Both the position numbers and the translations under genes were made by a program. The notes beneath the pieces are model-generated. The model saw only the letters and a program-made list of their open reading frames with translations. It searched no databases and had not been told where the DNA came from. DNA of 45,180 nucleotides from Phycisphaerae bacterium (GTDB lineage: Bacteria > Planctomycetota > Phycisphaerae > Sedimentisphaerales > Anaerohalosphaeraceae). Positions within the stretch are counted from its first letter, which is position 1, and every line of letters starts with the position of its first letter. Shown here one piece after another: positions 22,958 through 44,591 of this stretch. The stretch spans positions 1 to 45,180 of the forward strand of contig JACZKQ010000097.1 in assembly GCA_014859965.1 (NCBI GenBank), read 5' to 3'.

Positions 22958-24361
22958 ATGGAGAAATGCGGGGTTCTGAGGCTGTGTGTCGTGTTTGCGG
23001 CGGCGCTGGGCGGCGGTCTGCCGGCGGCTTGGGCGGATGAACGGCCAACCGGCCGGTTGATGATCGTCGGGGAGCATATCGAGCGGCTCGTTCTGGTGGA
23101 CCAGCACGGTGAATCGCAGATTTATTCGGGCGACGATCTCAATACCGGCATTAGTCTGGCGCCGGATAGATACCGGCCTCGAGAAGTGTATTTGAAGGGC
23201 GGATACCAATGCCATCTCTGGTCGGAGATGCAGTTTGCGCCGGTGAAGGTCGAGGCGGGTCAAACAACGGAACTGAAGGTCGGGGCGCCGCTGACGCAGG
23301 GGCTCAAGGTTGAGCGGCGAGGCAAGTTGTTTCTGCTGCAGTACGAGCTGCAGGGCGTCGGCGGCGAAACGTATACGGCTGCGAACCGAGGCGCACCGCC
23401 CGAGTTTGCCGTATACAAGGGTGATCGCAAGGTAGGCGGCGGCCGATTTGAGTATGGCTGAGGCGGCACATGCTCGTACTCGTGGCGAGTACCTTTTCAT
23501 GTTCATGGTGATTTGAAATTCGTAGCTCAGCACGACCTGGGCGAGTTGGGGCCGAAGGAGAGTGCGGCGGTGACTGCGTCGTGGCGCCTTGTGGATCAGT
23601 TTTCAGGTCTGGCCGTCTGGGTGCTTCTGGCTGCGGCAATTGTCCTGTTAAAGGAGAATCGCAATCGAAAAGTGCTGCTGATCGTGCTGCCGGTAATAGC
23701 TGTGAACCTTCTGTGGATCGGTATCAAGTTGCTTCTTGCCAGCTCAGCGGGAATGCCATCCGGGTCGGCGGCGTTGTTTGACGTTCTGGTCGCGGGCTTC
23801 ACTGTCGGTGCGGCGCTGGTGTTGTTGATCGCGGGCCGATTCAAGGGTATGAATCGCTTCCTCATCGTGCTGTTGGCAGCGGCGGTGATGGCGGCCGCAT
23901 TCGCGCTGTCTTATATCGGTTCGCGGGGACTGGTCTTTGGCGGCGAGGCGATTCAACTGAGCATCTTCTTTGGCGTGATAACCGTGGCCGCAATGCTGGC
24001 CCTGGTGCTGGCGGGTCTGTTTTGCCGCAGGCATTTCGGGGCGGTCAAGTTTGCATTATGGCTCGGCGCCTGGTGCGTGCTCCTGTGCGCGGGCATGCTG
24101 CTGTCAGTGGCGCTTACCGTGGCGCTGGTGATGACGGCCCTGGGCAACCATATGTCCGTCTGGGGCCAGATCGGCAAGTTTATCTTCGCCGGTGGCACAA
24201 TGGGCGCGGTGGTCTATGTGTTTCTGCTGCCATTCGTGGTCCTGGCGATCAGCAGCGACCTTTTCGGCGGGCGGTTTTACGGGTGTTTCCGGCGGAAGGG
24301 TATGGTGATTCCGCAGGCGGGTGTAGAAGCGGACGTGGCAAACGACCGGCAAACGACTTAG
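22958..24361 (+). CDS. Candidate selenoprotein, FEYGU family, fused to a polytopic membrane domain
   Basis: Read with TGA 23459-23461 as Sec, this is one 467-residue protein with Sec at 168. It has a signal peptide (LCVVFAAALGGGLPAAWAD), an extracytoplasmic beta-rich domain (about 30-165) ending in FEYG-U-GGTCSYSWRVP, a short linker, then about eight membrane segments to the C terminus. The 5' and 3' parts are in the same frame with no stop but the TGA; the 3' part alone lacks an ATG or ribosome site (its first possible start is a TTG at 23513). AAGGAG lies 7 nt before ATG 22958. The Sec and the Cys four residues later form a UxxxC pair suited to redox chemistry outside the cytoplasm. A SECIS-like hairpin follows the TGA. 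The same motif and upstream domain recur in two genes at 37.4-38.8 kb. A conventional call would split it in two genes. Function unknown. Confidence 0.85.
23476..23492 (+). promoter_or_regulatory. Candidate bacterial SECIS element (FEYGU membrane protein)
   Basis: GTACTCG, loop TGG, CGAGTAC: a perfect 7-bp stem at +15 to +31 after the TGA, with the loop at +22 to +24. Position and small GU-containing tip fit what SelB recognises in bacterial mRNAs. Confidence 0.75.
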
Positions 24362-24435: not shown

Positions 24436-25299
24436 TTAGTTTGTGACCTCCTGCTGCTCTTCGACCCGTTCGGGGGCGGCAGGGCCTTCGAAAACGGTGC
24501 TGACGCCGAGTGCTCCGGGCCCGCAGCGTGTGCATTCGAGGCAGCGGATGCAGCCGTGGTGGTTGGGGTCATTGTCCGGTGCGCCGCCGTAGGCGCAGAG
24601 GGTGCGGCAGCGCTTGCATGCGGTGCATTTGTGGTCTTCGAGCCGCATGGACAGGACGCTGAAGCGATTGAGGAACCCGAAGATCGCGCCTAAGGGGCAC
24701 AGGACGCGGCACCAGGGGCGGATCGTGATGAACATCGCCACGATCATCGCGACGACGATGCTGATTTTGACGGCGTTGGGCCAGATGATTTCCTTGCCCG
24801 TGACGGCCTGCGTAATGACGTCCGGGACGGCCTTTTCGAGTGCGCCGGCCGGGCAGATGCGGCAGACAAACAGCGGGTGGCCTTCGCCGAAGAGATACGG
24901 AATCACGAAGACGGCGCCGATGAGCACGACATAACGGAAGTAACCGGTCCATAAGGGCAGACTGAATTTCTTGATGGGGACCTTGGCGCCCAAATCCTGG
25001 AGAAGCCCGAAGGGGCAAACCCAGCCGCAGATCAATGCCCCAAAGAGCGCACCCACTGCGAGAACGGTGCCGATGGCGAGGAAGGGGAACACATGTATGG
25101 CGCTGAATTGGGCCATGATCCCGATCGGGCACGCGAAGGTCGACAGGGGGCAGGCGTAGCAATGGAAGACGGGGCCGCACACGTTATGGAGGCGCAGACC
25201 AAACGGACCGAGCCAGGCAAATAGAAACCCGACTTGGACCCAAATCCGCCACGGCAGTATGCGGGCGACAAACCGATTCAGTTTTGTTTTCTTGACCAT
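24436..25299 (-). CDS. Membrane-bound polyferredoxin, NapH/CcoG-like
   Basis: A 287-residue integral membrane electron carrier. It has about five membrane segments carrying Cys-Pro motifs (CPLSTFACPIG, CGWVCPFG, CRICPAG, CRVLCPLG) and a C-terminal cytoplasmic pair of 4Fe-4S sites (CTACKRCRTLC and CIRCLECTRC). Proteins of this type pass electrons across or along the membrane from quinol or low-potential donors. The likely start is ATG 25299; no ribosome site precedes it, so translation is probably coupled to the upstream CxxU gene, whose SECIS-like hairpin includes this ATG. In the same operon as a candidate selenoprotein and convergent with the FEYGU membrane protein, it may feed electrons to these redox tails. 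Partner unknown. Confidence 0.88.
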   Translation of the reverse strand: MVKKTKLNRFVARILPWRIWVQVGFLFAWLGPFGLRLHNVCGPVFHCYACPLSTFACPIGIMAQFSAIHVFPFLAIGTVLAVGALFGALICGWVCPFGLLQDLGAKVPIKKFSLPLWTGYFRYVVLIGAVFVIPYLFGEGHPLFVCRICPAGALEKAVPDVITQAVTGKEIIWPNAVKISIVVAMIVAMFITIRPWCRVLCPLGAIFGFLNRFSVLSMRLEDHKCTACKRCRTLCAYGGAPDNDPNHHGCIRCLECTRCGPGALGVSTVFEGPAAPERVEEQQEVTN

Positions 25300-25312
25300 G
25301 GACACCACAGTC
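25294..25312 (-). promoter_or_regulatory. Candidate bacterial SECIS element (CxxU protein)
   Basis: GACTGTGG, loop TGT, CCATGGTC: an 8-bp stem with two G-U pairs at +15 to +33 after the TGA. It extends past the TAA of the CxxU gene and over the ATG of the ferredoxin gene. Confidence 0.6.
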
Positions 25313-25317
25313 TTGAT

Positions 25318-25572
25318 TTAGCTGCCTCACGTAGCGCAGGCTTTGGGTGATTCGCCGGTGTAGGTTTGCTTGACGCTGCCGGATTCGTCGCGTTCGAGGC
25401 CGCCGACGGATGCCTGGCGGACAGCGTCCGGTTCGCGGGTTTCGATCGCGGCGGCGCCGTCCTCCTTGGGATGGACGTTTATGACGTGAAACGCCACACC
25501 GTAGGCCAATAAGCCCACGCCGAGCAGGACGAGTGTGATCGATACGAGCGTTTTTCTTCGAGATTGTGCCAT
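25318..25572 (-). CDS. Candidate small membrane selenoprotein with C-terminal CxxU
   Basis: With TGA 25327-25329 read as Sec the protein has 84 residues: one N-terminal membrane helix (LVSITLVLLGVGLLAYGVAFHV), an exposed polar tail, and the C terminus KACATUGS followed by TAA. This puts Cys79 and Sec82 in a CxxU redox pair at a flexible end, like the C-terminal Cys-Sec tails of other redox enzymes. If TGA were a plain stop, the protein would end in KACAT, with a lone Cys. Only two residues lie after Sec, so the frame itself says little; the evidence is the CxxU spacing, the hairpin, and the presence of a Sec system. CGGAG lies 6 nt before the ATG. It begins an operon with the membrane polyferredoxin. 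Confidence 0.65.
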
Positions 25573-30459: not shown

Positions 30460-30554
30460 TGGCGGAGGCGAATGGGAATCGAACCCACCCGGGACCTTAT
30501 CGGCCCCACAACGGTTTTGAAGACCGCGGGCAACACCAGTCACCAGTCACCTCC
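30460..30554 (-). tRNA. selC: tRNA-Sec (anticodon UCA)
   Basis: All hallmarks of bacterial tRNA-Sec are visible. The acceptor stem has 8 bp (GGAGGTGA with TCGCCTCC), the T stem 5 bp (GTGGG with CCCAT around TTCGATT), the D stem 6 bp (GGTGAC with GTTGCC) with a 4-nt loop, and there is a long variable arm (GGGGCC with GGTCCC). The anticodon loop is CTTCAAA, anticodon TCA at 30518-30520. The discriminator is G and CCA is encoded. It lies 24 nt after the selD stop on the same strand, so it is probably cut from the selD transcript. Confidence 0.97.
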
Positions 30555-30578: not shown

Positions 30579-32177
30579 TCACGGCTGCGGCTTATGCTGC
30601 TTGTAGAACATCATACACGGTGCGCCGCCGAATGCAATGCCCATCCACGCGGCCTCGTCGATTTCCTGCTCGGTAAAGCCTTTTTCGCGGGCCTTTGCGA
30701 TATGGCTGGCGACGCACGGCTCGCACCGCTGGGCGACGGACAGCGCAATGGAAATTGCCTGTTTGGTGTAGGCGTCCAGGCCGCCGGGGCGATTCACCTG
30801 CCCCATGAAGTCCATGAACTTCTGTTGGGCGCCCGATTCGTCCGCCGTGCCGGCAGCAGGCGTCGACGCAGCAGCAAGGGTCTCAGCACAGCATGCGGTT
30901 TCCGCCGGCGCGGCGGCCGGGGGCATAACAGCGGGCTCCTTCGGCGCCTTCTCCCTCGGTCGCGGGTCGGGCAGTGTTCGCTGGCCCGTCGTTCGCACAT
31001 GCACCTTGCCCGCGCCCCTGGCCAGGACTCTGCCGATCACCACAGCGGCCAATACGCCGGCTTCGTGCAGGGCCTTGAGCAGCGTGTCGGCCTTGCCCGG
31101 CTCGATAGCAATCAGCAGCCCGCCGGAGGTCTGGGCGTCAAAGCACATGTCCAGCATCTCGGGCGTGAGGCCTTCGCCTCCGATGACGCGGCCCCCGCAG
31201 GACTCCTTGTTGCGTTCGATCGCACCGGGCAATATCCCATCGGCGACGTATTGCAGCAGATGCGGAAAGACCGGCAAATCGTCCCAGACGACCTCCACGT
31301 CCACGCCGCTGGACAAAGCCATCTCCGACAGGTGGCCCATAAGGCTAAAGCCGGTCACGTCGGTGCAGGCGTGCGCGCCGAATTCGACCATCAGCCGCGA
31401 GGCCTCCTTGTTGAGCGTGGTCATGGATACGGCCGACGCCTCAACGCTTTCAGCGAACGCCCGGCCGATCTGCGAGGCGAACGCGATGATGCCTGTGCCC
31501 AGCGGCTTGGTAAGGATCAGCACGTCGTCGGGGCGGGCGGTGGCGTTGGCGGTAACCTGATTAATGGGCATAACGCCGGTGACCGCAAAGCCCGCCTTGA
31601 TCTCAGGGTCATTGATGCTGTGGCCGCCGATGATGGCGACGCCCGCCTCTTTCATCTTGTCGATGCCGCCGCGAAGGATTTCAGTGAGCGCGTTGTCGGG
31701 CACTTTGCGCACGGGAAAACCGATGACCGAAAGCGCCGTCAGTGGAATGCCGCCCATCGCGTAGATGTCGCTGACGGAGTTAGCGGCGGCGACCTGCCCA
31801 AAGGTGTACGGATCGTCGACCGACGGCGTGAATACATCGACCGTCTGCACGAGCGCCTTGCCGTCGCCGATATCGAAAATACCCGCGTCGTCGCCTGCCG
31901 GCACGCCGACCAGCACGCGCGGATCGTCGACCACGGGCAGCCCCTTGAGAACCTCCTTAAGGAATGCCTGATCGATCTTGGACGCGCAGCCGGCCTTCTC
32001 GATGAGGTGCGTGAGCTTGACCTCACCGGTCGGCGATTCGACCCGCTCACCCGCACAGAGGCAGATATCCTTCTCGCGGAACAGGTCGCAAGGGCAAGGC
32101 TTTCTGGCATCGCAGATGCAGTGACCCAGCTTGATCGAACGTTTCATGATCCGTTTGCGTTTTTCGAGATTACGCAT
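30579..32177 (-). CDS. selD: Selenophosphate synthetase with Cys-rich N terminus and C-terminal AhpD-like domain
   Basis: SelD makes selenophosphate from selenide and ATP. The core (about residues 53-400) is the usual PurM-like kinase, with the catalytic Cys64 and Lys67 in AGCASK (E. coli has GCGCK; the second Cys is Ser here). Two additions are unusual. Residues 18-45 hold three CxC pairs (Cys 20/22, 28/30, 39/41: CIC, CPC, CLC), which could bind an iron-sulfur cluster or a selenium species. Residues about 430-532 are a carboxymuconolactone decarboxylase/AhpD-like domain with CEPC at 485-488 and His492, the CxxCxxxH active-site pattern, joined by an Ala/Pro-rich linker. The 532-residue protein is far longer than the usual 345. 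It ends an operon with HgdB-like genes and precedes tRNA-Sec. Confidence 0.95.
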   Translation of the reverse strand: MRNLEKRKRIMKRSIKLGHCICDARKPCPCDLFREKDICLCAGERVESPTGEVKLTHLIEKAGCASKIDQAFLKEVLKGLPVVDDPRVLVGVPAGDDAGIFDIGDGKALVQTVDVFTPSVDDPYTFGQVAAANSVSDIYAMGGIPLTALSVIGFPVRKVPDNALTEILRGGIDKMKEAGVAIIGGHSINDPEIKAGFAVTGVMPINQVTANATARPDDVLILTKPLGTGIIAFASQIGRAFAESVEASAVSMTTLNKEASRLMVEFGAHACTDVTGFSLMGHLSEMALSSGVDVEVVWDDLPVFPHLLQYVADGILPGAIERNKESCGGRVIGGEGLTPEMLDMCFDAQTSGGLLIAIEPGKADTLLKALHEAGVLAAVVIGRVLARGAGKVHVRTTGQRTLPDPRPREKAPKEPAVMPPAAAPAETACCAETLAAASTPAAGTADESGAQQKFMDFMGQVNRPGGLDAYTKQAISIALSVAQRCEPCVASHIAKAREKGFTEQEIDEAAWMGIAFGGAPCMMFYKQHKPQP

Positions 32178-32207: not shown

Positions 32208-32981
32208 TCAGTCTTTCCTCATTGCCATGATGGCGGCGCCGAGCGCGCCTGTGATTTGCGGGTGCGGGCAGATCGCCACCTCGCTGCCGAGGGCTTCGGC
32301 AAGGGCTCTGTCCATGCCGCCGACGAGTGCGACGCCGCCGGTGAAGATCACCGGGCCGTGGACGACCGCCCCGGCCATTGCGGCGGTTCGCCCCGCGATG
32401 GCGTGCATGACACCCGCGACGATGTCGGCGGGTTCAGCGCCCGAGGCGAGCAGCCCCACGATCTCCGTCTCCGCGAAGACGACGCACATGCTGCTGATCT
32501 GGGCGGGCCGGCGGCTTTGGCTTGCCAGTTCACCAAGGTCGCACAGTCGCACGGCGAGCCGGTCGGCGACGATTTCGAGAAATCGGCCGGTGCCCGCGGC
32601 GCAGCGGTCGTTCATGGCGAAGTCGCGGACCCTGCCACCGGTGTCGAGGTGCAGCAGTTTGCTGTCCTGGCCGCCAATGTCGATTACCGTGCGGGCCGTG
32701 TCGACGAGCCTGCGGACTCCGGCGGCATGGCAGGTGATCTCGGTGACGGTGGTGCCGGCGACAGAGACGATGGCTCGTCCGTACCCCGTAGCGACGGCGC
32801 CCGCGACGTCCGACTCCCCGATGCCATTCTCTTCGAGCAATTGCCTGTAAAGCCGCCCGGCGAGTTTCGCCTGTTCGACGCCCTGGTCGGCAATCGCCGA
32901 GGCGACGATGCGGCCCGATGGGCCGTCGAGCAGCACGATCTTGACGGCTCTTGAGCCCGCGTCGATGCCTGCGTAAATCAT
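32208..32981 (-). CDS. BadF/BadG/HgdC-type ATPase activator
   Basis: A 257-residue ATPase of the family that activates 2-hydroxyacyl-CoA dehydratases, benzoyl-CoA reductases and double-cubane proteins by ATP-driven electron injection. It starts with the ASKHA phosphate loop GIDAGSRAVK, followed by TVIDIGGQDSK and the cluster region MNDRCAAGTGRFLE and SSMCVVFAETE; the two Cys bind a 4Fe-4S cluster bridging a dimer in the family. FTGGVA completes the nucleotide site. The ATG overlaps the stop of the upstream gene (ATGA), so translation is coupled. selD begins 30 nt later. It is the expected partner of the three upstream dehydratase-like proteins. Confidence 0.93.
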   Translation of the reverse strand: MIYAGIDAGSRAVKIVLLDGPSGRIVASAIADQGVEQAKLAGRLYRQLLEENGIGESDVAGAVATGYGRAIVSVAGTTVTEITCHAAGVRRLVDTARTVIDIGGQDSKLLHLDTGGRVRDFAMNDRCAAGTGRFLEIVADRLAVRLCDLGELASQSRRPAQISSMCVVFAETEIVGLLASGAEPADIVAGVMHAIAGRTAAMAGAVVHGPVIFTGGVALVGGMDRALAEALGSEVAICPHPQITGALGAAIMAMRKD

Positions 32982-34363
32982 GGTTGCCTCCGTTGATGGA
33001 TGGTTTCGACGAGCGCCTCGATGCGGGTTGCGATGGCGGGGCGGATCGCATCGGTCAGCGGCGGAATTTCGATTTCGAGCACGGCAAGCCCGCATGTCTT
33101 GCGGAGGTGCTCGGCGATGATTCGGCCCTCGACGGCGCAGTGGCTTGCGCCCGGTATGCGGGAGATGATCACAGCCTCAGCCCCGAAGGTGCGGGCGTCG
33201 GCGGCGATGCGGGCGGCGCGGTCGACCGCCGAGCCGGCCATCGGATCGGCCAGTGCCGCCAGGGCGAGTGCTTCGAGCGGTTCGACATCTTCACGCAGGA
33301 GGTCCAGTGCGTGGGTAAACATGTATTCCGTGCCGCAGATCCTTGCCCCGTATTGTTCAAGCAGGTTCATCACCCGAAGGTCGGCGACAGGGTTGACCCA
33401 GAAGACCTTTACGGCGTCCGGGCTGCCGAAGCCGACTCCCGCGGCGATGCGAGCCTGCACCTCGGCGCCGAGTTCCTCAAGCACCGCCGCGGTTTCTTCG
33501 CGGTCGCTGCAGTAATGGATCGCCAGCATCTCGGCAATGAGCATCTCCAGCGCGGGCATGGGACAGCGCGACGCCGTGAAGACCGTGCGGCGGAGTTCCG
33601 AAAGCAGGCGGCGAATGTCGTTGGCGCGGGCGATGGCCGACGACAGCGCGGCGTCGTCGAGTTGGACGCCGGAGACCTCTTCGAGGGCCCTTTGCACGAG
33701 CACCAGTTGCGCCCGCACAAAGTCGACCTGCGATTGGGCAGCGACAAACGTTCCGCCCGGAAGCGTTACACATTGCTCGCCTTGTTCGGGACCCCGGCGG
33801 TGCGGGATTTCCCACCACACAATTGTGTGCCCGAGTCCCTCCAGCCGCTGGGCGATGGCGCTGAAGTCGTCGCATGTTGCCCCGACGCTGCACGTCAGCA
33901 GGTCCGGGATCGGAAAGTGATTGCCGGTGACGAACGCGCCCAGCATGGCTCGCACGGGGCAGAAAGATTCGTCGACACCGAGCGAGTCGGCGACGGCCAG
34001 CAGCCGGTCGCTGTTTTCCATCACGCAGGGAATCCACCATGCGCCGTCGGGGTAAAAGGCGACCACGTTATCCAGCGCATTGGCCATCACCGCCGTCGTG
34101 CCAAGGTCCTTCATCACGCCGACGATCTTCTTCCCCTCCGACCTCGCTTGCGTCAGGCGTTCTTCTTCAGTCAGCAGGAAATTCCACAGACGCAGCGCGG
34201 CGGCCGAATCATCGAACATCAGTTTTCGCAGGCGATAATCCCCATCCTCAGCGTGGCGGCTGAGTTTGCCCCCATAGAAGGGCTCCGCCAGTCCTGCCGA
34301 TTTCAACGCCTCATAGCGCCCGTCCCACTCGTCGAGCGTGATCTGTCGCAGCTTTTGCGTCAT
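32978..34363 (-). CDS. 2-hydroxyacyl-CoA dehydratase-like subunit (HgdB superfamily)
   Basis: A 461-residue protein related to the 2-hydroxyacyl-CoA dehydratase/benzoyl-CoA reductase subunits. Segments such as FCPVRAMLGAFVTGNHFPIPDLLTCSVGATCDD and a later WWEIPHR place Cys residues where the family binds its cluster; the second half repeats the fold (VFWVNPVADLRVMNLLEQYGARICGTEYMF). It starts at ATG 34363, overlapping the upstream stop (ATGA); an upstream in-frame ATG would overlap the previous gene by about 190 nt. It lies between a second HgdB-like gene and the ATPase, so it is probably one of two unlike subunits of an ATP-driven reductase. No CoA substrate can be inferred, and no CoA-transferase gene is nearby. 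Confidence 0.85.
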   Translation of the reverse strand: MTQKLRQITLDEWDGRYEALKSAGLAEPFYGGKLSRHAEDGDYRLRKLMFDDSAAALRLWNFLLTEEERLTQARSEGKKIVGVMKDLGTTAVMANALDNVVAFYPDGAWWIPCVMENSDRLLAVADSLGVDESFCPVRAMLGAFVTGNHFPIPDLLTCSVGATCDDFSAIAQRLEGLGHTIVWWEIPHRRGPEQGEQCVTLPGGTFVAAQSQVDFVRAQLVLVQRALEEVSGVQLDDAALSSAIARANDIRRLLSELRRTVFTASRCPMPALEMLIAEMLAIHYCSDREETAAVLEELGAEVQARIAAGVGFGSPDAVKVFWVNPVADLRVMNLLEQYGARICGTEYMFTHALDLLREDVEPLEALALAALADPMAGSAVDRAARIAADARTFGAEAVIISRIPGASHCAVEGRIIAEHLRKTCGLAVLEIEIPPLTDAIRPAIATRIEALVETIHQRRQP

Positions 34364-35268
34364 TGCAGCGTCTCCAGAAAAGCCTGTACGCGGCCGGCCG
34401 TCCGCTCGCCGGCGGCCGGGCTGTCGTCGCTGACATCCAGATCGAGCAGCGGCACGTGCAGGGCATCCCTGAGCCGATGAACTTCCGCATGCCAGAGGTC
34501 GCACCACACAAGACGCCGACAGATGACGCCCTGCACACGGCGCTCGGTGCATTCACGGGTGAGCCAGTCAAAGAGACCGGTGTTGGGTCGCTTCCAGACG
34601 GCGGGAATCGAATCGAAGTAAGCCCGCGCGAGTTCACCGACTGGATCCTGCCGCAGCAGCGCGGGATCGAACCGGTCCGGCAGCGTGCGCTCGCCGGTCT
34701 CGGTTGCGTCGAATACGATTCGCCCGCCGTTCCGCACGACCAGATCAAACAGCCCCGACTCTCCTGCGAGCAGAGGCCCGCCGACAAGTGCGAGCCGAAC
34801 GCCGCCGCTGTCGGCAACCCGACGGTCGGGCATCGCTTGCCTGCGCCCGTCAAAGTCAAGCATCGTCGCCGCCAGGGCATCGGCCGAAGGCACGCACCCC
34901 CCAAGGGTGTACAGCCACCGTCCCATGCGGCCAAGCTCGTCGATGTAAAGTTGAGTGCAAGCAGCGTTCCGCCACGTCTTGGGCAGATTCAACAGGAAGG
35001 TCTCCACGCATGTCCCATCGACCACGAGGTCGCGCACCCTGCGCATCTGGTCGCACGCGGTGGTGAAGATCGCCCCGCAGGATGTGCTGTCGCCGAGCAC
35101 GTGATTGGCAAATGCCCGGGCAAAGGGACAGAGGCCTTCGATTGGAGCGACTGCGGCATGCATCCCTGTCGACTGCGGCATTATGCGAGCGGGCCGCAAC
35201 CCGTGCGCGGCGATCCACTCGGCCGGGACGAACGGACATGTGTAGAGGATCTGCGACACGCCGGTCAA
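34360..35268 (-). CDS. 2-hydroxyacyl-CoA dehydratase-like subunit (HgdB superfamily)
   Basis: A 302-residue member of the same superfamily, shorter than the typical 380-430 residues. Its cluster-site cysteines are in LYTCPFVPAEWI, EGLCPFARAF, FTTACDQMRRVRD and RRLVWCDLWHAE, in family order. The start is a TTG overlapping the stop of the upstream gene (TTGA), and its own stop overlaps the next ATG (ATGA). Such tight coupling suggests subunits made in equal amounts. With the 461-residue neighbour it may form a heterodimer carrying iron-sulfur clusters, activated by the ATPase at 32208. Confidence 0.82.
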   Translation of the reverse strand: MTGVSQILYTCPFVPAEWIAAHGLRPARIMPQSTGMHAAVAPIEGLCPFARAFANHVLGDSTSCGAIFTTACDQMRRVRDLVVDGTCVETFLLNLPKTWRNAACTQLYIDELGRMGRWLYTLGGCVPSADALAATMLDFDGRRQAMPDRRVADSGGVRLALVGGPLLAGESGLFDLVVRNGGRIVFDATETGERTLPDRFDPALLRQDPVGELARAYFDSIPAVWKRPNTGLFDWLTRECTERRVQGVICRRLVWCDLWHAEVHRLRDALHVPLLDLDVSDDSPAAGERTAGRVQAFLETLQ

Positions 35269-36428
35269 TCCTTCCTTGCCATTTCGAATAACGCCTCGAC
35301 GCGGACCGCGATGCGGGCCGAGTCCGACGGCGAGTAGTCGGTTTCGATTTTCAGGTAGGGTAGCCCGAGTCTTTCAGCGGCAAGCCGCCGGACAAAATAC
35401 GACTCGACGTCGTAGGTCAAGCAGGCCTGCCAGACAAGGTCGATAATGCAGTCGGCTCGATATGTGCCGGCGAGTTGTTCGAGCATCTCCATGCGCCGGT
35501 CGTTTCGCGTCATCACCGAGCACGGCAGACGAAAATACTTCTCCGCGATCGCCTCCATCGGGTCGGCGGCGTTTTCGTCGACGTCTTCGAGAATGGGCTT
35601 CAGGCCGGTGCAGTTTTCCATGCAGACGACCAGACCTCCGTTTGCCTCGATAAGATCCACAATGCGTTCGGCCCCGTGCACCACGGGCACGCCGGTGAGA
35701 AGCACGCGCACCGGCCGCTTGCTCGCCCCTACCAACGGCGCCGAGCGATAAAGCTGCAGAGCCTCATCATACTGCTCGAAGTCGGCTTCAATACCTGATA
35801 TGCTGCTCTTGAAGTCGAGCAGTTGTCGTCCCGTAATCGGCGGTGCGTCACCGGCCATAAGCTGAGCTAATTGCCGCCTGAGGCCGCGTTCGCGATTCAT
35901 CGTACGGATCGCCCCGCGGAGTCTCTCATCGGTGATCCGCATATCGAATCGCCCCTCGAGAACGCGTTTGAACTTGTCCAGTTCGCTTCGCCAGTGCTGC
36001 ATGGCGTCGGCGTCGTCGGGTTTCTGCGCCAGTTCGAGCACGTGCATCGGCCGAGTCTCGGACAGAAGTTCATACATCTTCTTTTTGCCGTCGCACGTAG
36101 TCTCGGCGACGATAAGATCCGCCATTTCGAGAAAAGGGTTCGTCTTCTGAACGTGGTAGCCGTACGTCGATTTGATCAGCGGGCAAAGGTTCGCCGGCAG
36201 GTGCTGCTCGGCGGCCGCAATCGTCTGCTGCGAGCCCCCGCACAGACAGACCGGCACGGCGTCGGCCGCCAGAATCAATTCGCGCGGCGTAAACTCGCAC
36301 ATGATGCCCACGATGCCCCTGCCCTGTGCCTTGGCCCTCGTGGCGTATTCGCAGCATCGGCCGATCATACCGCCGAACCACGCACGCGGCCCGTCGCCTG
36401 GTTTGCTATTGGGACAGCATTGTGTCAT
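35265..36428 (-). CDS. Double-cubane cluster protein-like (YjiM/DCCP type)
   Basis: A 387-residue protein that resembles the E. coli YjiM/double-cubane cluster protein branch of the HgdB superfamily, in length and in motif order: GIMCEFTPRELILAADAVPVCLCGGSQ, NLCPLIKSTYGY, ADLIVAETTCDGKKKMYE and IDLVWQACLTYDVES near the end. Known members hold an unusual iron-sulfur double cubane and, when fed electrons by their ATPase, reduce difficult small molecules. The ATPase at 32208 would be the partner. Its stop overlaps the TTG start of the next gene. The presence of this protein in an operon ending in selD and tRNA-Sec is striking; the physiological substrate is unknown. Confidence 0.85.
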   Translation of the reverse strand: MTQCCPNSKPGDGPRAWFGGMIGRCCEYATRAKAQGRGIVGIMCEFTPRELILAADAVPVCLCGGSQQTIAAAEQHLPANLCPLIKSTYGYHVQKTNPFLEMADLIVAETTCDGKKKMYELLSETRPMHVLELAQKPDDADAMQHWRSELDKFKRVLEGRFDMRITDERLRGAIRTMNRERGLRRQLAQLMAGDAPPITGRQLLDFKSSISGIEADFEQYDEALQLYRSAPLVGASKRPVRVLLTGVPVVHGAERIVDLIEANGGLVVCMENCTGLKPILEDVDENAADPMEAIAEKYFRLPCSVMTRNDRRMEMLEQLAGTYRADCIIDLVWQACLTYDVESYFVRRLAAERLGLPYLKIETDYSPSDSARIAVRVEALFEMARKD

Positions 36429-36494: not shown

Positions 36495-37301
36495 TCAATC
36501 CTCTTTCCGGGCGACGAAAAGCCCCTGTGCGATACGGCCGTCGTGGGCGAGTTGCTGCATGAACTGCATCTCGCCGGCGATCGCCGTCAGCATGCCTTCG
36601 TCGAAGCCGATGATCTTTAGCACGTCATAGCCCAACTGCTTGCCGACCATGTCGAGGTACAAGTCGACGTAGGGCGCAAATCGGCCGGTGTCCTCGGCGG
36701 TGACGATGCGGCAGTTGTTTGCTTCCAGCAATCCACAGTAGCCGTCGATGTCCTCCATGTTGGCAAACTTCATGAACTTCATGAATCGTCCGGCCTGCTC
36801 GTCGGAAAGCCCCGCCGGCCCCTCTACCCAGTCGGTGAAGGCGATGACGCCGCCGGGTCGCACGATCCGCGCCGCCTCGGCGATGAGCCGCTCTTTGTCC
36901 TCAACATAGCACCACGCGTCTTCGCCCCAGACAAAGTCCACGCCATCGCTTTCGAGACCGCTGTCGCAAACATCGGCGAGCACGAAGTCAATGCGGTCGG
37001 CAAGGCCTTCCGCGCGGCAGCGCCGCTGCCCTTCTTTCACGACGGCTTCGGTAGCGTCCACGCCGACCATCCGTGCCGCGCCCTGCATGCGCACCAGGAA
37101 CCGCATGCCCGCGCCGGTGCAGCAGCACAGGTCGACGCCGTGGGCGCCGGCGGCAATACCCGCCTTTTCGCACAGGTCCAGCGACGAAAGGAACCCGCCG
37201 ATATGAATCTGTTCGCCCATGATCCGTTCCCACAACCGGCCTTCTGGGCCGCTGTAGACCTCCTGCACGTCCGTCAGAGCGATGCCTTCGATTCTCTTCA
37301 T
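36495..37301 (-). CDS. SAM-dependent methyltransferase
   Basis: A 268-residue class I methyltransferase. The SAM-binding glycine motif is GVDLCCCTGAGM, followed by VGVDATEAVV (acidic ribose contact), DFVLADVCD and FVWGEDAWCYVED; the C-terminal half resembles sarcosine/dimethylglycine or ubiquinone-type methyltransferases. It is the first gene of the run of minus-strand genes leading to selD (66 nt to the double-cubane protein) and lies after the terminator at 37328. It could methylate a small molecule in this pathway. A selenium-methylating role is possible only as speculation. The triple Cys in the SAM loop is unusual. Confidence 0.87.
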   Translation of the reverse strand: MKRIEGIALTDVQEVYSGPEGRLWERIMGEQIHIGGFLSSLDLCEKAGIAAGAHGVDLCCCTGAGMRFLVRMQGAARMVGVDATEAVVKEGQRRCRAEGLADRIDFVLADVCDSGLESDGVDFVWGEDAWCYVEDKERLIAEAARIVRPGGVIAFTDWVEGPAGLSDEQAGRFMKFMKFANMEDIDGYCGLLEANNCRIVTAEDTGRFAPYVDLYLDMVGKQLGYDVLKIIGFDEGMLTAIAGEMQFMQQLAHDGRIAQGLFVARKED

Positions 37302-37327: not shown

Positions 37328-37366
37328 AAAAAAAAGGCGGGCAAGAGCATCGCACTCTTACCCGCC
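37328..37366 (-). terminator. Strong rho-independent terminator after the FEYGU pair
   Basis: On the minus strand GGCGGGTAAGAG, a 7-nt loop, CTCTTGCCCGCC, then eight T. The 12-bp stem starts 24 nt after the TAG of the FEYGU gene at 37390. This position fits the readthrough end of that gene and not its TGA, which lies 150 nt earlier. Confidence 0.95.
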
Positions 37367-37389: not shown

Positions 37390-38061
37390 CTAATTAATCA
37401 TGTGCCAGGTTTCGTCCTGTTTCATCTCAAAGGGGCCCGACTCGACGTCGACAACTACGCGGAATGCGCCCTCGAAACCTTTTGGCACTCGCCACGAGTA
37501 CCGGCAGGTTCCGCCTCAGCCATACTCGAACTTGCCGGTCTGCAGCACATTGCCGGCCTTGTCGAGAATGGTGAATTTCGGCGCACCCACGGTCTTGCCG
37601 TTTCGCTTAAACATTGAATAATGTTCGCCGTGCGCTCCCACAAGCAACGGGGCGAGAAGCCGCACGCCGCTGCCCGCAGCGGTAACGTCAACCTTGGCAA
37701 TCAAAGGACCGTCCAGCTTCACGACCGTGGTCTGCCCTTTTTCGACAACGACAGGGGCCAGTTCGCCCCATGGTCCGTTGCTGTACACTTGCCATTCTTC
37801 CGTGGTCTTGCTTCCGCCGCCGGAGACAATCTGCTGCTCAAGAGTCCTGTACAATTGCACCGGCGTGTATTGGCCGGCCCTGATAGGCTGGGGTTCTGTG
37901 GTTGGCCCGACGGTAGCCCCCAACCCGAGCGATCCCCGAATAATCAGCCTCGCCCCTTCGGAGTCGGCTGCGATCATACCGGTTTTGCGCAGAGAGAGCA
38001 GCCCCGCGGCAACCAACCCCAAAGCGAGAAGAACCATTACAATCGCGACTAACTTTTTCAT
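37390..38061 (-). CDS. Candidate selenoprotein, FEYGU family
   Basis: With TGA 37516-37518 read as Sec this is a 223-residue protein, Sec at 182, ending at TAG. One N-terminal membrane helix or uncleaved signal (AIVMVLLALGLVAAGLLSL) anchors an exported beta-rich domain. The shared core runs from VVVEKGQTTVVKLDGPL through GEHYSMFKRNG and PKFTILDKAGNVLQTGK to FEYG-U-GGTCRYSWRVPKGFEG; 41 residues follow Sec. The paralog at 38151 aligns both before and after the TGA (GPFEMKQDETW against GPFETKQELEW), so the region after the TGA is a conserved protein. A strong terminator lies just past the TAG. A conventional call would stop at residue 181. Predicted role: extracytoplasmic UxxxC redox protein; substrate unknown. 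Confidence 0.88.
37484..37502 (-). promoter_or_regulatory. Candidate bacterial SECIS element (FEYGU protein, 37390 gene)
   Basis: GGTACTCG, loop TGG, CGAGTGCC: an 8-bp stem with one U-G pair at +14 to +32 after the TGA, loop at +22 to +24. Confidence 0.75.
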
Positions 38062-38150
38062 AATCGCCTCACGCGAAAATTACAGAGCACGCCCGCCAAT
38101 ATACCAGAGCAGCGGACCCGCCGCAACCACTAATATTCGCCTGATCCGGC

Positions 38151-38834
38151 TCAGTAAACCGTATACCACTCCAGTTCCTGTTTTGTTTCAAACGGGCCGA
38201 GGTTTGCGTCGATTTTGACCTGGTACCGTCCCTTGAAAGATTGGGGCACCCGACACGAGTGCTTGCACACGCCGCCTCAGCCATACTCAAAATGCCCGGC
38301 TGCGAGCACCTGACCGTTTTCGCCCACAAGCTGAAACCTCGGGGCGGGCTCCCATGCGCCGTTTTTCAGGGCGCCCGGTACGTATTTTTCGCCGGCCTGT
38401 CCTTCCAGATGGACCCCCACAGTAACCCTGTTGCCGTACGCCTGAGCCTCGGTCCGGATGAACAGCGGCGGGCCGCTCTTGCTGTCGCGAACCACCACGC
38501 TGGATTGGCCTTTCATGAGTTGCAGGGTCCAGAGGTCTCCGTCCGCCGTGCGCATCTCGGGCGCCCCAAGCTTTTTCAGGCTAGGCATGTCGGGTTTAGA
38601 AGGCGTAAACAGGCGAATGCAGGCAATCGTCAGGATGACAGCGCCGCTGGCCGCAAGAAGCACTGCCGGCCTGCGCCACAACGGTCGCTCCTCATCGTAC
38701 CCGGCGAAGAGCGACTTGAGCCGGCGGAACCCATCCGTCGCCATCTGCCGGCCCTCCCCCGACTGGATCCGGTCCCAGACCCGAAGCACGGTCTGAGAAA
38801 TCAGACCGAACAGTGCCAAAATAAAGTTCTTCAC
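38151..38834 (-). CDS. Candidate selenoprotein, FEYGU family
   Basis: With TGA 38277-38279 read as Sec the protein has 227 residues with Sec at 186 and a TGA stop at 38151. The start is GTG 38834, 8 nt after GGAGGT. A cytoplasmic N-terminal part (about 60 residues) precedes one membrane helix (AVLLAASGAVILTIACIRLF), so the C-terminal domain would face outward. That domain shows KGQSSVVVRD, AGEKYVPGALKNG, PAPRFQLVGENGQVLAAGH and FEYG-U-GGVCKHSCRVPQSFKG, then GPFETKQELEW. Its resemblance to the 37390 gene continues for 41 residues beyond the TGA. Here the second Cys (SCRVP) replaces the Trp of the paralogs. It lies 89 nt upstream of the 37390 gene in the same orientation and shares its terminator. 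Confidence 0.87.
38246..38262 (-). promoter_or_regulatory. Candidate bacterial SECIS element (FEYGU protein, 38151 gene)
   Basis: GCACTCG, loop TGT, CGGGTGC: a 7-bp stem with one U-G pair at +15 to +31 after the TGA, loop at +22 to +24. Compared with the paralogs, a U-A pair has become C-G, a compensatory change. Confidence 0.75.
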
Positions 38835-40469: not shown

Positions 40470-41876
40470 ATGAATGATTCGAGTCAGGAGCTTTTGCGGC
40501 GGATACCGTCAGTGGATGCCTTGTTAAAGCAGCCCCAGGTCGCCGGCCTTATCGACCGCTTCGGTCGCCGCATCGTGGCCGATTCGTTTCGCCGCGCCGC
40601 CGACAACGTCCGCCAGGCAATACTCTCCGGCCAAACACAGGGCTTCGACGACGGAGTCGATCTCCGCATCATGGCAGACGCCGCCGCCCGGGTCAAGGCG
40701 CTCACACACCGCCACTATCGCCGCGTCATCAACGCCGCCGGCATCGTCCTTCACACCGGCCTCGGCAGGGCGGTCCTCTGCCGCCAGGCCGTCGAGCAGC
40801 TCGCCGAAGAGATGGGCCACTACTCGCTCCTCCAGGTCGACACCGAAGAAGGCAAACGCTCCACCCGCGACAGCCACATCGAGCAACTGCTGCAAATCCT
40901 CACCGGCGCAGAAGCCGCCACAGTCGTCAACAACAACGCCGCCGCGACCTCCCTCGTGCTCAACACTGTCGCCGCCGGCCGCGAGGTCATCGTCTCGCGA
41001 GGCCAGCTCGTCGAGATCGGCGGCGCATTCCGCCTCCCCGACGTCATGGCCTTCAGCGGCGCAAAGATGATCGAGGTCGGCACGACCAACAAGACCCACG
41101 TCCGCGATTATGAAAACGCCATCACCGAAAACACCGCGGCCCTGTTGCGGGTCCATCCGAGCAACTACAAAATCCAGGGGTTCACCTCCGAGGTATCGCT
41201 CGATGACATGGTCGCCATAGCGCGCCGCCACAATCTCGTCATGATCGACGACGTCGGCGCCGGCTCTCTGGTCGATTTCTCAAAGTACGGTTTCGAGCCC
41301 GAGCCCACCCTCGCCCAGTCCGTCGCCGCCGGAAGCGACATCATCACCTCCAGCGCCGACAAGCTCATCGGCGCCTCCCAGGGCGGCATCATCCTCGGCC
41401 GCACCGCGTGGATCGACGCCGTCCGAAAAAACCAGTTCGCCCGCATCGTCCGCGTAGGCAAGCTCACACTGGCGGTCCTCGAAGCCACCCTGAAACTCTT
41501 CCTCGACGAAGCCGCCGCCCTGCGCGAGGTCCCCACCTGCCAAATGCTCCTGCGGCCCGCCGACGACATCGCCCGCCAGGCCAAACGCATCGCCGCCCAA
41601 CTCCAAAAGGCCCAACTCCCCGCCGAGATCGCGACCGCCCCTGGCTTCTCCCAAACCGGCAGCGGCTCTCTGCCCACCCAAAACATGCCGACGACCCTGG
41701 TCACGGTCACGCCCGCCAAGATGACCGCTGAAACCCTCGCCGCCCGCCTCCGCAGCCACAAAACCCCCATCTTCTCCCGAATCCAAAAAGCCCAGATCCT
41801 CCTCGACCCTAGAACCCTCCGAGAAGACGACGAAAAAATCCTCACCCAGGCCCTCATCGAACTCCTGAAGACATAA
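40470..41876 (+). CDS. selA: L-seryl-tRNA(Sec) selenium transferase
   Basis: SelA is a PLP enzyme that converts Ser-tRNA-Sec to Sec-tRNA-Sec with selenophosphate. The 468-residue length is typical. The N-terminal tRNA-binding part (RRIPSVDALLKQP) is present, the family segment NAAGIVLHTGLGRA follows, then NNNAAATSLVLNTVAAGREVIVSRGQLVEIGG, and the PLP lysine is K298 in SSADKLIGASQGG. It follows the DUF2283-like gene by 23 nt. selB is downstream but separated by an AbrB-Doc module, an unusual insertion because selA and selB are normally adjacent. Codon use is very C-rich on this strand. Confidence 0.98.
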   Translation: MNDSSQELLRRIPSVDALLKQPQVAGLIDRFGRRIVADSFRRAADNVRQAILSGQTQGFDDGVDLRIMADAAARVKALTHRHYRRVINAAGIVLHTGLGRAVLCRQAVEQLAEEMGHYSLLQVDTEEGKRSTRDSHIEQLLQILTGAEAATVVNNNAAATSLVLNTVAAGREVIVSRGQLVEIGGAFRLPDVMAFSGAKMIEVGTTNKTHVRDYENAITENTAALLRVHPSNYKIQGFTSEVSLDDMVAIARRHNLVMIDDVGAGSLVDFSKYGFEPEPTLAQSVAAGSDIITSSADKLIGASQGGIILGRTAWIDAVRKNQFARIVRVGKLTLAVLEATLKLFLDEAAALREVPTCQMLLRPADDIARQAKRIAAQLQKAQLPAEIATAPGFSQTGSGSLPTQNMPTTLVTVTPAKMTAETLAARLRSHKTPIFSRIQKAQILLDPRTLREDDEKILTQALIELLKT

Positions 41877-42671: not shown

Positions 42672-44591
42672 ATGGCGACATCAAAAATCAACATTACGTT
42701 AGGCACGGCCGGGCACATTGACCACGGCAAAACGGCCCTGATCAAGCTGCTCACCGGCTGCGATACGGACTTCCTCAAGGAGGAGAAAGAGCGGGGCATG
42801 TCGATCGAGCTGGGCTTTGCCCCCTGCACCATCGCCGACCTCGAAGTCGGCATCGTCGACGTCCCCGGCCACGAGCACTTCATCAAAACCATGGTCGCCG
42901 GCGCCACCGGCATCGACGGCGTCATCTTCGTCATCGCCGCCGACGACGGCGTCATGCCGCAGACCCGCGAGCACCTCGACATCCTCACGCTGCTCGGCGT
43001 CGCCCACGGCATCGTCGCCCTCACGAAGGTCGACGCCGTTTCGCCCGAGCGGGTCGCCGCGGTCACCGACGAGGTCCGCCGCTTCCTGACCGGCACGTTC
43101 CTCGCCGACGCCCCCATCCTGCCGATGTCCTCCATCACCGGCCAGGGCTTCGACGGCTTCTACGAAGGCCTCCGAGACCTCGTCGCCCAAATCCGCCCGC
43201 GCACCGTCGAAGGCGTGTTCCGCCTCCCGATCGAAAAGACCTTCTCCGTAAAAGGCTACGGCTCCGTAGTCACCGGCATCCCCGTCTCCGGCTGTGCCGC
43301 CGTCGGCGACGAGGTTGTGCTCCTGCCGCAGGGCCAGAAGGGCCGCATCAAAGCCATCCAGGTCTACAGCAGCCCCGCCGAGCAGGTCCTCTCCGGCCAG
43401 TGTGCCGCCCTCAGCGTCCCGCAGTGGGACTACCGCAGTATCGTCCGCGGCAACGTCGTCACCGTCGGCCGCTACTTCGCCCCGCGCCAGTGGTACCTCT
43501 GCAAGCTGCAAATGCTGCCGCAGGACAAGCTCTTCCTCAAGACCGGCACGCAGGTCAAGTTCCACACCGGCGCAAGCGAAGTCGTCGCCAAGGTCTACCT
43601 CATGGAGGGCAACACAATCACCGCCGGCCGCGAGCAGGTCGTCCAGATCCACACCGAGCGGCCCGTGGTCGCCGCCCCCGGCGACCGCTTCATCATCCGC
43701 ACGCCCAGCCCCGCCAACACCATCGGCGGCGGCCTCATCGTCGAAGCCATGGACCAGCGCATCCGCCGCAGTCGGCCGGACCTCCTCGACGAGGCACGCG
43801 CGCGGGCCGAAGCCGTCTCCGGCGAACTCAGCTTTCTCGAATACTGCGTCAAAACCGCAGAAGGCGGCGCCGCAAACCCGCAGCAGCTTTCCCTCCGCGC
43901 AAAAATCCTGCCGCCGCGACTGGACATGCTCCTGACGCAATTGCAGCAGGCCGGCACAATCACCCGCCTCTCCGGCAATCTGTTCGTACACGTCTCGGCC
44001 GCCGAGCAACTCGAAAACAAGCTCACCGACGCCGTGCGCCAGTTTCACAACACCCAGCCCGAGAGCCCCGGCATAGCCCCCGACGCGCTGCTGCACGCCT
44101 CCGGCCTCAATAAGAACGTCTTCGACGGCCTCCTCGAACGCATGCTGGCCGCCGGCACACTGACCCAGCGAAAAGGCTGCATCGCGCTGCCCGAACATCG
44201 CGAGGATTTCGACCCCGCCCAGCGCCGCCTGCTCGCGTCGGTCGAGGACCTGTTCGCAAAGCGCCTCTTCAACCCGCCGTCCATCGACGAAGCCGCCGCC
44301 GCCATCGGCGTGCCCGTCGGGGCGGTCCAGAAGACGGTCCGCATCCTCACCGAGCAGCAGACCCTCGTGCAGATCGACCGCGACAACGTCTTCCACAGCA
44401 AGGCAATCCGCGAGGCCTCAAGACGCCTCACGGAGCACATCCAAAAAGAAGGAAAGCTTGAAAGCGTCGCCTTCAAGTACCTGCTCGACACAACCAGAAA
44501 ATGGGCGATTCCGCTGCTCGACTACATGGACAAGATCGGCGTAACAATGCGCTCCGGAAACACACGCTACCTCAAGAAACCCCTCGCTTAG
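42672..44591 (+). CDS. selB: Selenocysteine-specific elongation factor
   Basis: SelB carries Sec-tRNA-Sec to ribosomes paused at UGA with a SECIS. The 639-residue protein has the G domain at the start (GTAGHIDHGKTALIKLLTG, then DVPGHE and TKVD), two EF-Tu-like barrel domains up to about residue 370, and winged-helix domains from about 380 to the end, the last of which bind the SECIS hairpin (DKIGVTMRSGNTRYLKK is the typical end). GGGAGAT precedes the ATG. The complete SECIS-binding end supports active decoding. It starts 72 nt after doc and is followed by the PGUGSP gene. Confidence 0.98.
   Translation: MATSKINITLGTAGHIDHGKTALIKLLTGCDTDFLKEEKERGMSIELGFAPCTIADLEVGIVDVPGHEHFIKTMVAGATGIDGVIFVIAADDGVMPQTREHLDILTLLGVAHGIVALTKVDAVSPERVAAVTDEVRRFLTGTFLADAPILPMSSITGQGFDGFYEGLRDLVAQIRPRTVEGVFRLPIEKTFSVKGYGSVVTGIPVSGCAAVGDEVVLLPQGQKGRIKAIQVYSSPAEQVLSGQCAALSVPQWDYRSIVRGNVVTVGRYFAPRQWYLCKLQMLPQDKLFLKTGTQVKFHTGASEVVAKVYLMEGNTITAGREQVVQIHTERPVVAAPGDRFIIRTPSPANTIGGGLIVEAMDQRIRRSRPDLLDEARARAEAVSGELSFLEYCVKTAEGGAANPQQLSLRAKILPPRLDMLLTQLQQAGTITRLSGNLFVHVSAAEQLENKLTDAVRQFHNTQPESPGIAPDALLHASGLNKNVFDGLLERMLAAGTLTQRKGCIALPEHREDFDPAQRRLLASVEDLFAKRLFNPPSIDEAAAAIGVPVGAVQKTVRILTEQQTLVQIDRDNVFHSKAIREASRRLTEHIQKEGKLESVAFKYLLDTTRKWAIPLLDYMDKIGVTMRSGNTRYLKKPLA

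Follow-up and report, generated by a model that had tools for sequence, protein, structure and literature searches.

Decoding of UGA as selenocysteine (Sec) by SelB and a bSECIS hairpin is established, and the commonest bacterial selenoprotein is FdhA. The family described here is like FdhA, GrdA and SelD, which are decoded by SelB/bSECIS, in its in-frame UGA, its hairpin 20 nt downstream and the presence of SelA, SelB, SelD and tRNA-Sec. Those three belong to other protein families, however, and the product here is predicted to be an exported immunoglobulin-like (Ig-like) beta domain. Thioredoxin-fold selenoproteins (Trx, Grx, Prx-like and DsbA-like, with UxxC or CxxU) also have Sec and Cys near each other and a probable thiol redox role, but the present family has U-x3-C and an all-beta model, and no match to thioredoxin-fold selenoprotein families was found with Pfam or NCBIfam.

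The nearest motif in the 2026 inventory of selenoproteins is that of NF049953 (hypothetical protein DG, GUxG, ribbon_DG_selen), whose Gly-Sec-x-Gly is alike on paper; the model matched 0 of the 7 loci of this genome, and its best match elsewhere had E 0.007. Another candidate, NF041425 (OS_HP2), overlapped copy 2 (listed below) at the Sec loop with E 0.08 and 13.3 bits against a cut-off of 100, and no family member passed this model at E 0.01. It was rejected because its best match in the genome (L006:1315-2406, plus strand; 53.4 bits, below the cut-off), which is free of TGA, looks like a DUF1573 protein.

None of 92 members matched any model of NCBIfam 20.0 at E 0.01, and the inventory, which covers 119 selenoprotein families and subfamilies and whose table includes the families of Haft & Tolstoy 2025, has no corresponding entry. 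Pfam gave scattered weak Ig-like matches only, and seven of the 92 members weakly matched MG2. No paper dealing with a U-x3-C or FEYGU family, or with selenocysteine in Sedimentisphaerales, came up in a literature search of incomplete coverage. An earlier sequence-only reading of this DNA had proposed a new selenoprotein family that it did not recognise among the known ones, which agrees with its absence from NCBIfam 20.0 and from the inventory; by the sources searched, the family is very probably undescribed. The explanation that fits best as a whole, that these are selenoprotein genes decoded by SelB/bSECIS and encoding an exported Ig-like redox domain of an undescribed family, is in our judgement quite probable.

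Predicted selenoprotein genes and selenocysteine machinery in the window

The window, which is the whole stretch of 45,180 nt analysed here, has three predicted selenoprotein genes. It also has tRNA-Sec, SelA, SelB and SelD within 45 kb, so that the Sec machinery is complete.

38152..38834, minus strand: predicted selenoprotein gene, copy 1; 227 codons, GTG start, U186
38277..38279, minus strand: predicted Sec codon TGA of copy 1
38149-38151, minus strand: terminal stop of copy 1, a second TGA
37393..38061, minus strand: predicted selenoprotein gene, copy 2; 223 codons, U182
37516..37518, minus strand: predicted Sec codon TGA of copy 2
37390-37392, minus strand: stop of copy 2, TAG
37336..37366, minus strand: Rho-independent terminator 3' of copy 2; 14-pair stem, starting about 23 nt past the TAG
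22958..24361, plus strand: predicted selenoprotein gene, copy 3; 467 codons, U168
23459..23461, plus strand: predicted Sec codon TGA of copy 3
30460..30554, minus strand: tRNA-Sec, anticodon TCA (ARAGORN; Rfam RF01852, 77.2 bits)
30579..32177, minus strand: SelD fused to an AhpD-type domain (TIGR00476, 351.6 bits; TIGR00778, 50.7 bits)
40470..41876, plus strand: SelA (TIGR00474, 547.8 bits)
42672..44591, plus strand: SelB (TIGR00475, 360.4 bits)

Translation of the minus strand with TGA as U confirmed what had been claimed for the two neighbouring genes: each meets an in-frame TGA after FEYG, continues for 41 similar residues beyond U, and ends at a normal stop, with the joined lengths of 223 and 227 residues and the strong terminator after copy 2 as described. 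The second TGA of copy 1 is a real stop, therefore the first TGA would be recoded by its context. The description as two adjacent paralogs did not hold; it is instead a superfamily with seven members in the genome, and the third copy lies within the same window. Copy 3, the tRNA-Sec and the sel genes of the window had been missed in the earlier reading.

The claim that the conservation after the TGA exceeds chance was borne out. The FEYG-TGA-GG motif (TTYGARTAYGGCTGAGGNGG) had three exact matches in the window and none across 100 shuffles, the protein downstream is conserved in at least about 138 genes, and after the TGA pS was 0.51, far above pN of 0.19, in pairs chosen by protein identity, which brings some bias. 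The motif shared by the members is (F/M/L)-E-(Y/F)-G-U-G-G-x-C-x-x-S-W-R-x-P.

By hydropathy, copy 1 has a single transmembrane (TM) segment at about residues 58-76. Copy 2 has an N-terminal TM segment at about 4-22 and the Ig-like domain at about 118-223. Copy 3 has a signal-like N-terminus, followed by the Sec domain and several TM segments, and the TGA joins these parts. Hydropathy and positive-inside charges suggest that the domain is exported, membrane-anchored and faces the outside. The UxxxC pair on the outer side of the membrane, as earlier proposed, is thus seen as far as the U-x3-C itself is concerned, and its outer placement is the probable reading of these hydropathy and charge patterns.

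bSECIS hairpin

Each of the three genes has a candidate bSECIS hairpin after the TGA.

38246..38262, minus strand: hairpin of copy 1; loop GUGUC, covariance model 45.2 bits
37485..37501, minus strand: hairpin of copy 2; covariance model 59.4 bits
23476..23492, plus strand: hairpin of copy 3; covariance model 58.4 bits

According to PMC13188914, a bSECIS element has an apical loop of 3-9 nt that has G in its first two positions and lies 16-37 nt from the UGA, an upper stem of 4-16 bp, and an MFE of at most -7.5 kcal/mol in this structure. The hairpin here has a 5-nt loop and 6 pairs, within the loop and stem rules, and the window copies agree with the loop-G and spacing rules (loop GUGGC or GUGUC, 20 nt). 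About a quarter of 101 members have A first in the loop (TCA or ACA codon) and follow the G rule only loosely. Folding of 48 nt gave -23.8 kcal/mol for copy 2 (z -4.1), with the hairpin present, and -11.7 kcal/mol for copy 3, with the hairpin inside a larger fold. Copy 1, whose hairpin is the weakest of the three, gave -14.1 kcal/mol, and its single-sequence MFE favours another fold.

Pairing of columns 18-23 with 29-34, counted from the T of TGA, was found in 97.9% of cells against 86.1 ± 0.7 in shuffled alignments, and 63 cells were changed on both sides against 17.7 ± 4.7; five of the six pairs showed such double changes. None of 500 shuffles reached the observed values on any measure, slid control structures failed, and RNAalifold recovered the same hairpin unprompted. 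The 3' arm was not forced by the pattern used for scanning GTDB genomes, whose last codon was that for Trp (column 27). Codon pairs follow the hairpin (Tyr TAC-Val GTA, Leu CTC-Glu GAG, His CAC-Val GTG, Phe TTC-Glu GAA), and in the change from Ser TCG/Arg CGA to Thr ACG/Arg CGT the compensation is partly at a synonymous site; the hairpin Arg codon is CGA in 76 of 101 members. As a bSECIS element it would be a clean case, with the effect of base pairing on the encoded residues visible in either arm.

The covariance model found just the seven family loci in the 5.28 Mb genome at E 1e-6 or better, the next match having E of about 1, and three places only in the window at E < 1. Rfam has no matching SECIS family. 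We propose that SelB with Sec-tRNA-Sec would read the UGA after FEYG as Sec, directed by this hairpin 14 nt past the UGA (about 20 nt to the loop).

Distribution of the family

Pattern and protein searches detected seven members in the genome, on contigs C167 (three, the window), C129, C195, C153 and C4, with TGA at the same column in 7/7. Their common part is a domain of about 100 residues, C-terminal or near C-terminal. The N-terminal parts vary: L001, for instance, has leucine-rich repeats, and L005, L013 and L015 have longer regions that look extracytoplasmic. The C-terminal parts also differ, and copy 3 runs into a multi-TM region. L008, L016 and L017 were rejected as chance matches.

A profile built from the seven members (A1) and used on 59 related genomes gave about 44 one-TGA matches in 13 of them, plus three stop-free matches. 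Scanning GTDB species genomes with the TGA pattern matched at least 111 stretches; matches such as L087, L095, L104, L118, L135, L136, L145 and L159 were dropped for want of a fitting frame. Scan and relatives combined gave at least 142 distinct sequences, and with four that look decayed set aside, at least about 138 intact members. By record titles the hosts are mostly Planctomycetota (Sedimentisphaerales, Phycisphaerae, Pirellulales), and further ones belong to Verrucomicrobiota, Lentisphaerae, Hydrogenedentota, Sumerlaeota, BRC1, Omnitrophota and Riflebacteria. In a sample of the phylum, 53 of 392 genomes had a family match, wider variants included.

Homologs that all end at FEYG had been named beforehand as evidence against a selenoprotein; in nearly all homologs the TGA stands in this column and the frame continues past it. 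An assembly error, a pseudogene or chance similarity might be suspected since the window comes from a draft contig, but the same TGA occurs in many independently assembled genomes. That explanation is already refuted, and its probability is negligible. Because the standard code ends these genes at FEYG, truncated hypothetical proteins probably conceal a widespread selenoprotein group. The motif together with the hairpin gives a concrete annotation model, by which well over a hundred gene calls could be corrected.

The four decayed copies have the TGA and the hairpin in a broken frame (L049 at about 11812, L051 at about 3308 and L103 at about 2049, all minus strand; L132:2824, plus strand), and the L049 and L051 pieces sit upstream of a methyltransferase gene (G006 and G035). 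A reading of the four as leader elements was rejected in favour of decayed copies as the likelier one; in L103 and L132 pieces of the usual C-terminus survive out of frame, so that these two look like pseudogenes.

The two pieces upstream of the methyltransferase gene would also suit a selenium sensor, in which the UGA and hairpin are mainly regulatory and the FEYG-terminated product does the work. To our knowledge UGA recoding is never complete, which is a point for such a sensor. In addition, PMC4513850 reports in vivo UGA recoding of 30-40% that depends on selenium. Against the sensor, purifying selection on the 41 post-U residues is as strong as on the residues before U, the tail appears to complete the beta domain in the model, and the two copies with out-of-frame remnants are pseudogene-like. 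We consider the sensor very unlikely as the main role.

Relation to SelB and cysteine forms

SelB was above the cut-off in 10 of the 59 relatives. TGA members were present in 10/10 of those and in 3/49 relatives without SelB (Fisher P 5e-9), and the three SelB-less genomes with TGA members are all incomplete (G011, 76%; G019, 89%; G020, 88%). In the phylum sample, SelB occurred in 43 of 50 family-bearing genomes, the seven exceptions being 56-88% complete, and in 26/26 of the nearly complete family-bearing ones; it occurred in 17 of 30 genomes without the family. The family is a likely reason for the retention of Sec machinery in many uncultured Planctomycetota and their relatives.

A lack of Cys/Sec alignment across the TGA in any relative had likewise been named as evidence against the family. 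Such an alignment is present, in distant relatives only. In the stop-free FQSQCCGNYRFSW of G013, G021 and G033, all without SelB, Cys aligns to the Sec column with no gap, and GGCCGGGY (MGGCCGGGY in L217) has Cys where other Planctomycetota have GGCUGGGF. L226 and L227 are adjacent Cys-Sec variants (GCUGGGF), and G250 has a Cys form together with SelB in one genome. The Cys forms seen are distant and have no Cys at +4. The form FEYGCGGxC, which a close Cys relative would have, did not turn up, the GTDB scan pattern having required TGA.

Reading of the UGA by a near-cognate tRNA or suppressor, for instance as Trp and free of selenium, would be compatible with the in-frame conservation taken alone. 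It does not agree with a hairpin that covaries exactly where SelB binds, with the tie to SelB and the sel genes beside the family genes, with Cys and not Trp at the Sec column of distant relatives, or with the true termination of copy 1 at a TGA, and we regard it as extremely improbable. Sequence comparison shows that coding continues beyond the TGA, that the hairpin is present, that TGA members are tied to SelB and that distant relatives have Cys in the Sec column; on this basis the UGA after FEYG is almost certainly decoded as Sec.

Domain structure and possible function

AlphaFold2 with 92 sequences and Cys in place of Sec modelled residues 120-223 as all beta, with pLDDT mostly > 90. With this model Foldseek found no match at E < 0.001. 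VIA-align gave generic Ig-like matches only, alpha-2-macroglobulin and complement MG domains being prominent. The likeness to alpha-2-macroglobulin MG and other Ig-like/FN3 domains is one of fold class, with Z up to 6.6 over 84-94 residues, and Z < 8 means a common arrangement only, too distant for a claim of kinship. We know of no Sec or GUGG loop in alpha-2-macroglobulin MG, Ig-like or FN3 domains. No Trx-fold chain was among the fold matches listed, which by itself excludes nothing, and a PDB sequence search found nothing. The model thus points to an all-beta, immunoglobulin-like domain with no thioredoxin fold. With the family, known Sec chemistry would gain a scaffold that is Ig-like instead of thioredoxin-like and has a U-x3-C pair.

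Essentially all members of the main group retain Cys at +4, which the search pattern required for most of them, and so do nearly all HMM-found relatives. The Sec selenolate and this Cys four residues on could form a reversible selenenylsulfide, by which the domain would act as an extracytoplasmic thiol/selenol redox module. We favour this redox role of the exported domain, by a modest margin over its being wrong. The wider variants YGUGGGGW and GCUGGGF keep Sec and have no +4 Cys, so U-x3-C is not universal, and the mechanism in general may be other than a Se-S pair.

Those variants are also what a binding or carrier module (for a metal, a metalloid, or selenium or sulfur species) would lead one to expect, in which Sec is inserted and serves like the arm of SoxY with no redox couple. 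SoxY is a GGCGG thiol carrier with an Ig-like partner, SoxZ, and its carrier motif is C-terminal. The likeness is a chalcogen residue flanked by glycines, here Sec within the Gly-rich loop YGUGG; a methyltransferase and selenium genes adjoin, and the weak Foldseek list has a SoxYZ chain and CopC at a non-significant E of 0.05-0.14. However, GGCGG of SoxY is at the very C-terminus, whereas 41 residues follow Sec in copies 1 and 2 and 41 or more in the family, and the retention of the +4 Cys described above also speaks against a carrier. A carrier role is therefore the less likely one, and we think it rather improbable compared with the selenenylsulfide module.

Gene island

The window genes are part of an island with the following further members.

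32208..33095, minus strand: acyl-CoA dehydratase activase-like ATPase (TIGR00241, 241 bits); conserved synteny
32978-34552, 34360-35268 and 35265-36428, minus strand: three double-cubane-cluster reductase-like genes (NF040772; 53.9, 61.4 and 418.1 bits, only the last above the cut-off of 350); conserved synteny
36495..37301, minus strand: SAM methyltransferase directly downstream of copy 2 (PF08241, 59 bits; NF045667, 52 bits, below the cut-off of 155)
24436..25308, minus strand: NapH-like membrane Fe-S protein, convergent with copy 3 (PF12801, 50.1 bits; TIGR02163, 57.8 bits, below the cut-off)

Parts of the island recur in G002, G035, G036, G006 and G023. It comprises two Sec genes in tandem, one of them multi-TM, a separate short Sec gene, and genes for the NapH-like protein, a small Cys membrane protein, SelD, the activase, the three double-cubane-type proteins, the methyltransferase, SelA and SelB. 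A carboxypeptidase-regulatory-repeat protein, whose thioredoxin-like end is degenerate and has no CxxC, also belongs to it. In the window this island is partial and interrupted by other genes; the activase, the three double-cubane-type genes and the methyltransferase gene stand there between SelD and the Sec genes of copies 1 and 2. This recurrence supports a shared selenium-linked function, and synteny leaves the specific pathway unproven.

The NapH-like gene also follows Sec genes in G035 and G036. Electrons for the Sec domain would perhaps come from this membrane Fe-S protein of the same island, although we hold it doubtful as the donor. FdhA was not found in this genome, so the family could be one of the main users of Sec there. 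A wider proposal joins the FEYGU family, the NapH-like protein, the double-cubane reductases with their activase, the methyltransferase and the Sec machinery as one island into an undescribed extracytoplasmic selenium redox system, with the family as the main or only reason why these lineages keep Sec; we offer it tentatively, as something short of an even chance.

Two smaller observations concern the neighbours. A small membrane protein with Cys near its C-terminus lies beside the NapH-like gene (24436-25572, minus strand, for the two), and the two likewise come after the Sec genes in G035 and G036. Between the Sec genes and SelA there is a pseudopilin-like gene (PF07963; 38993-39895, plus strand), and similar genes are found in the islands of G002 and G035.
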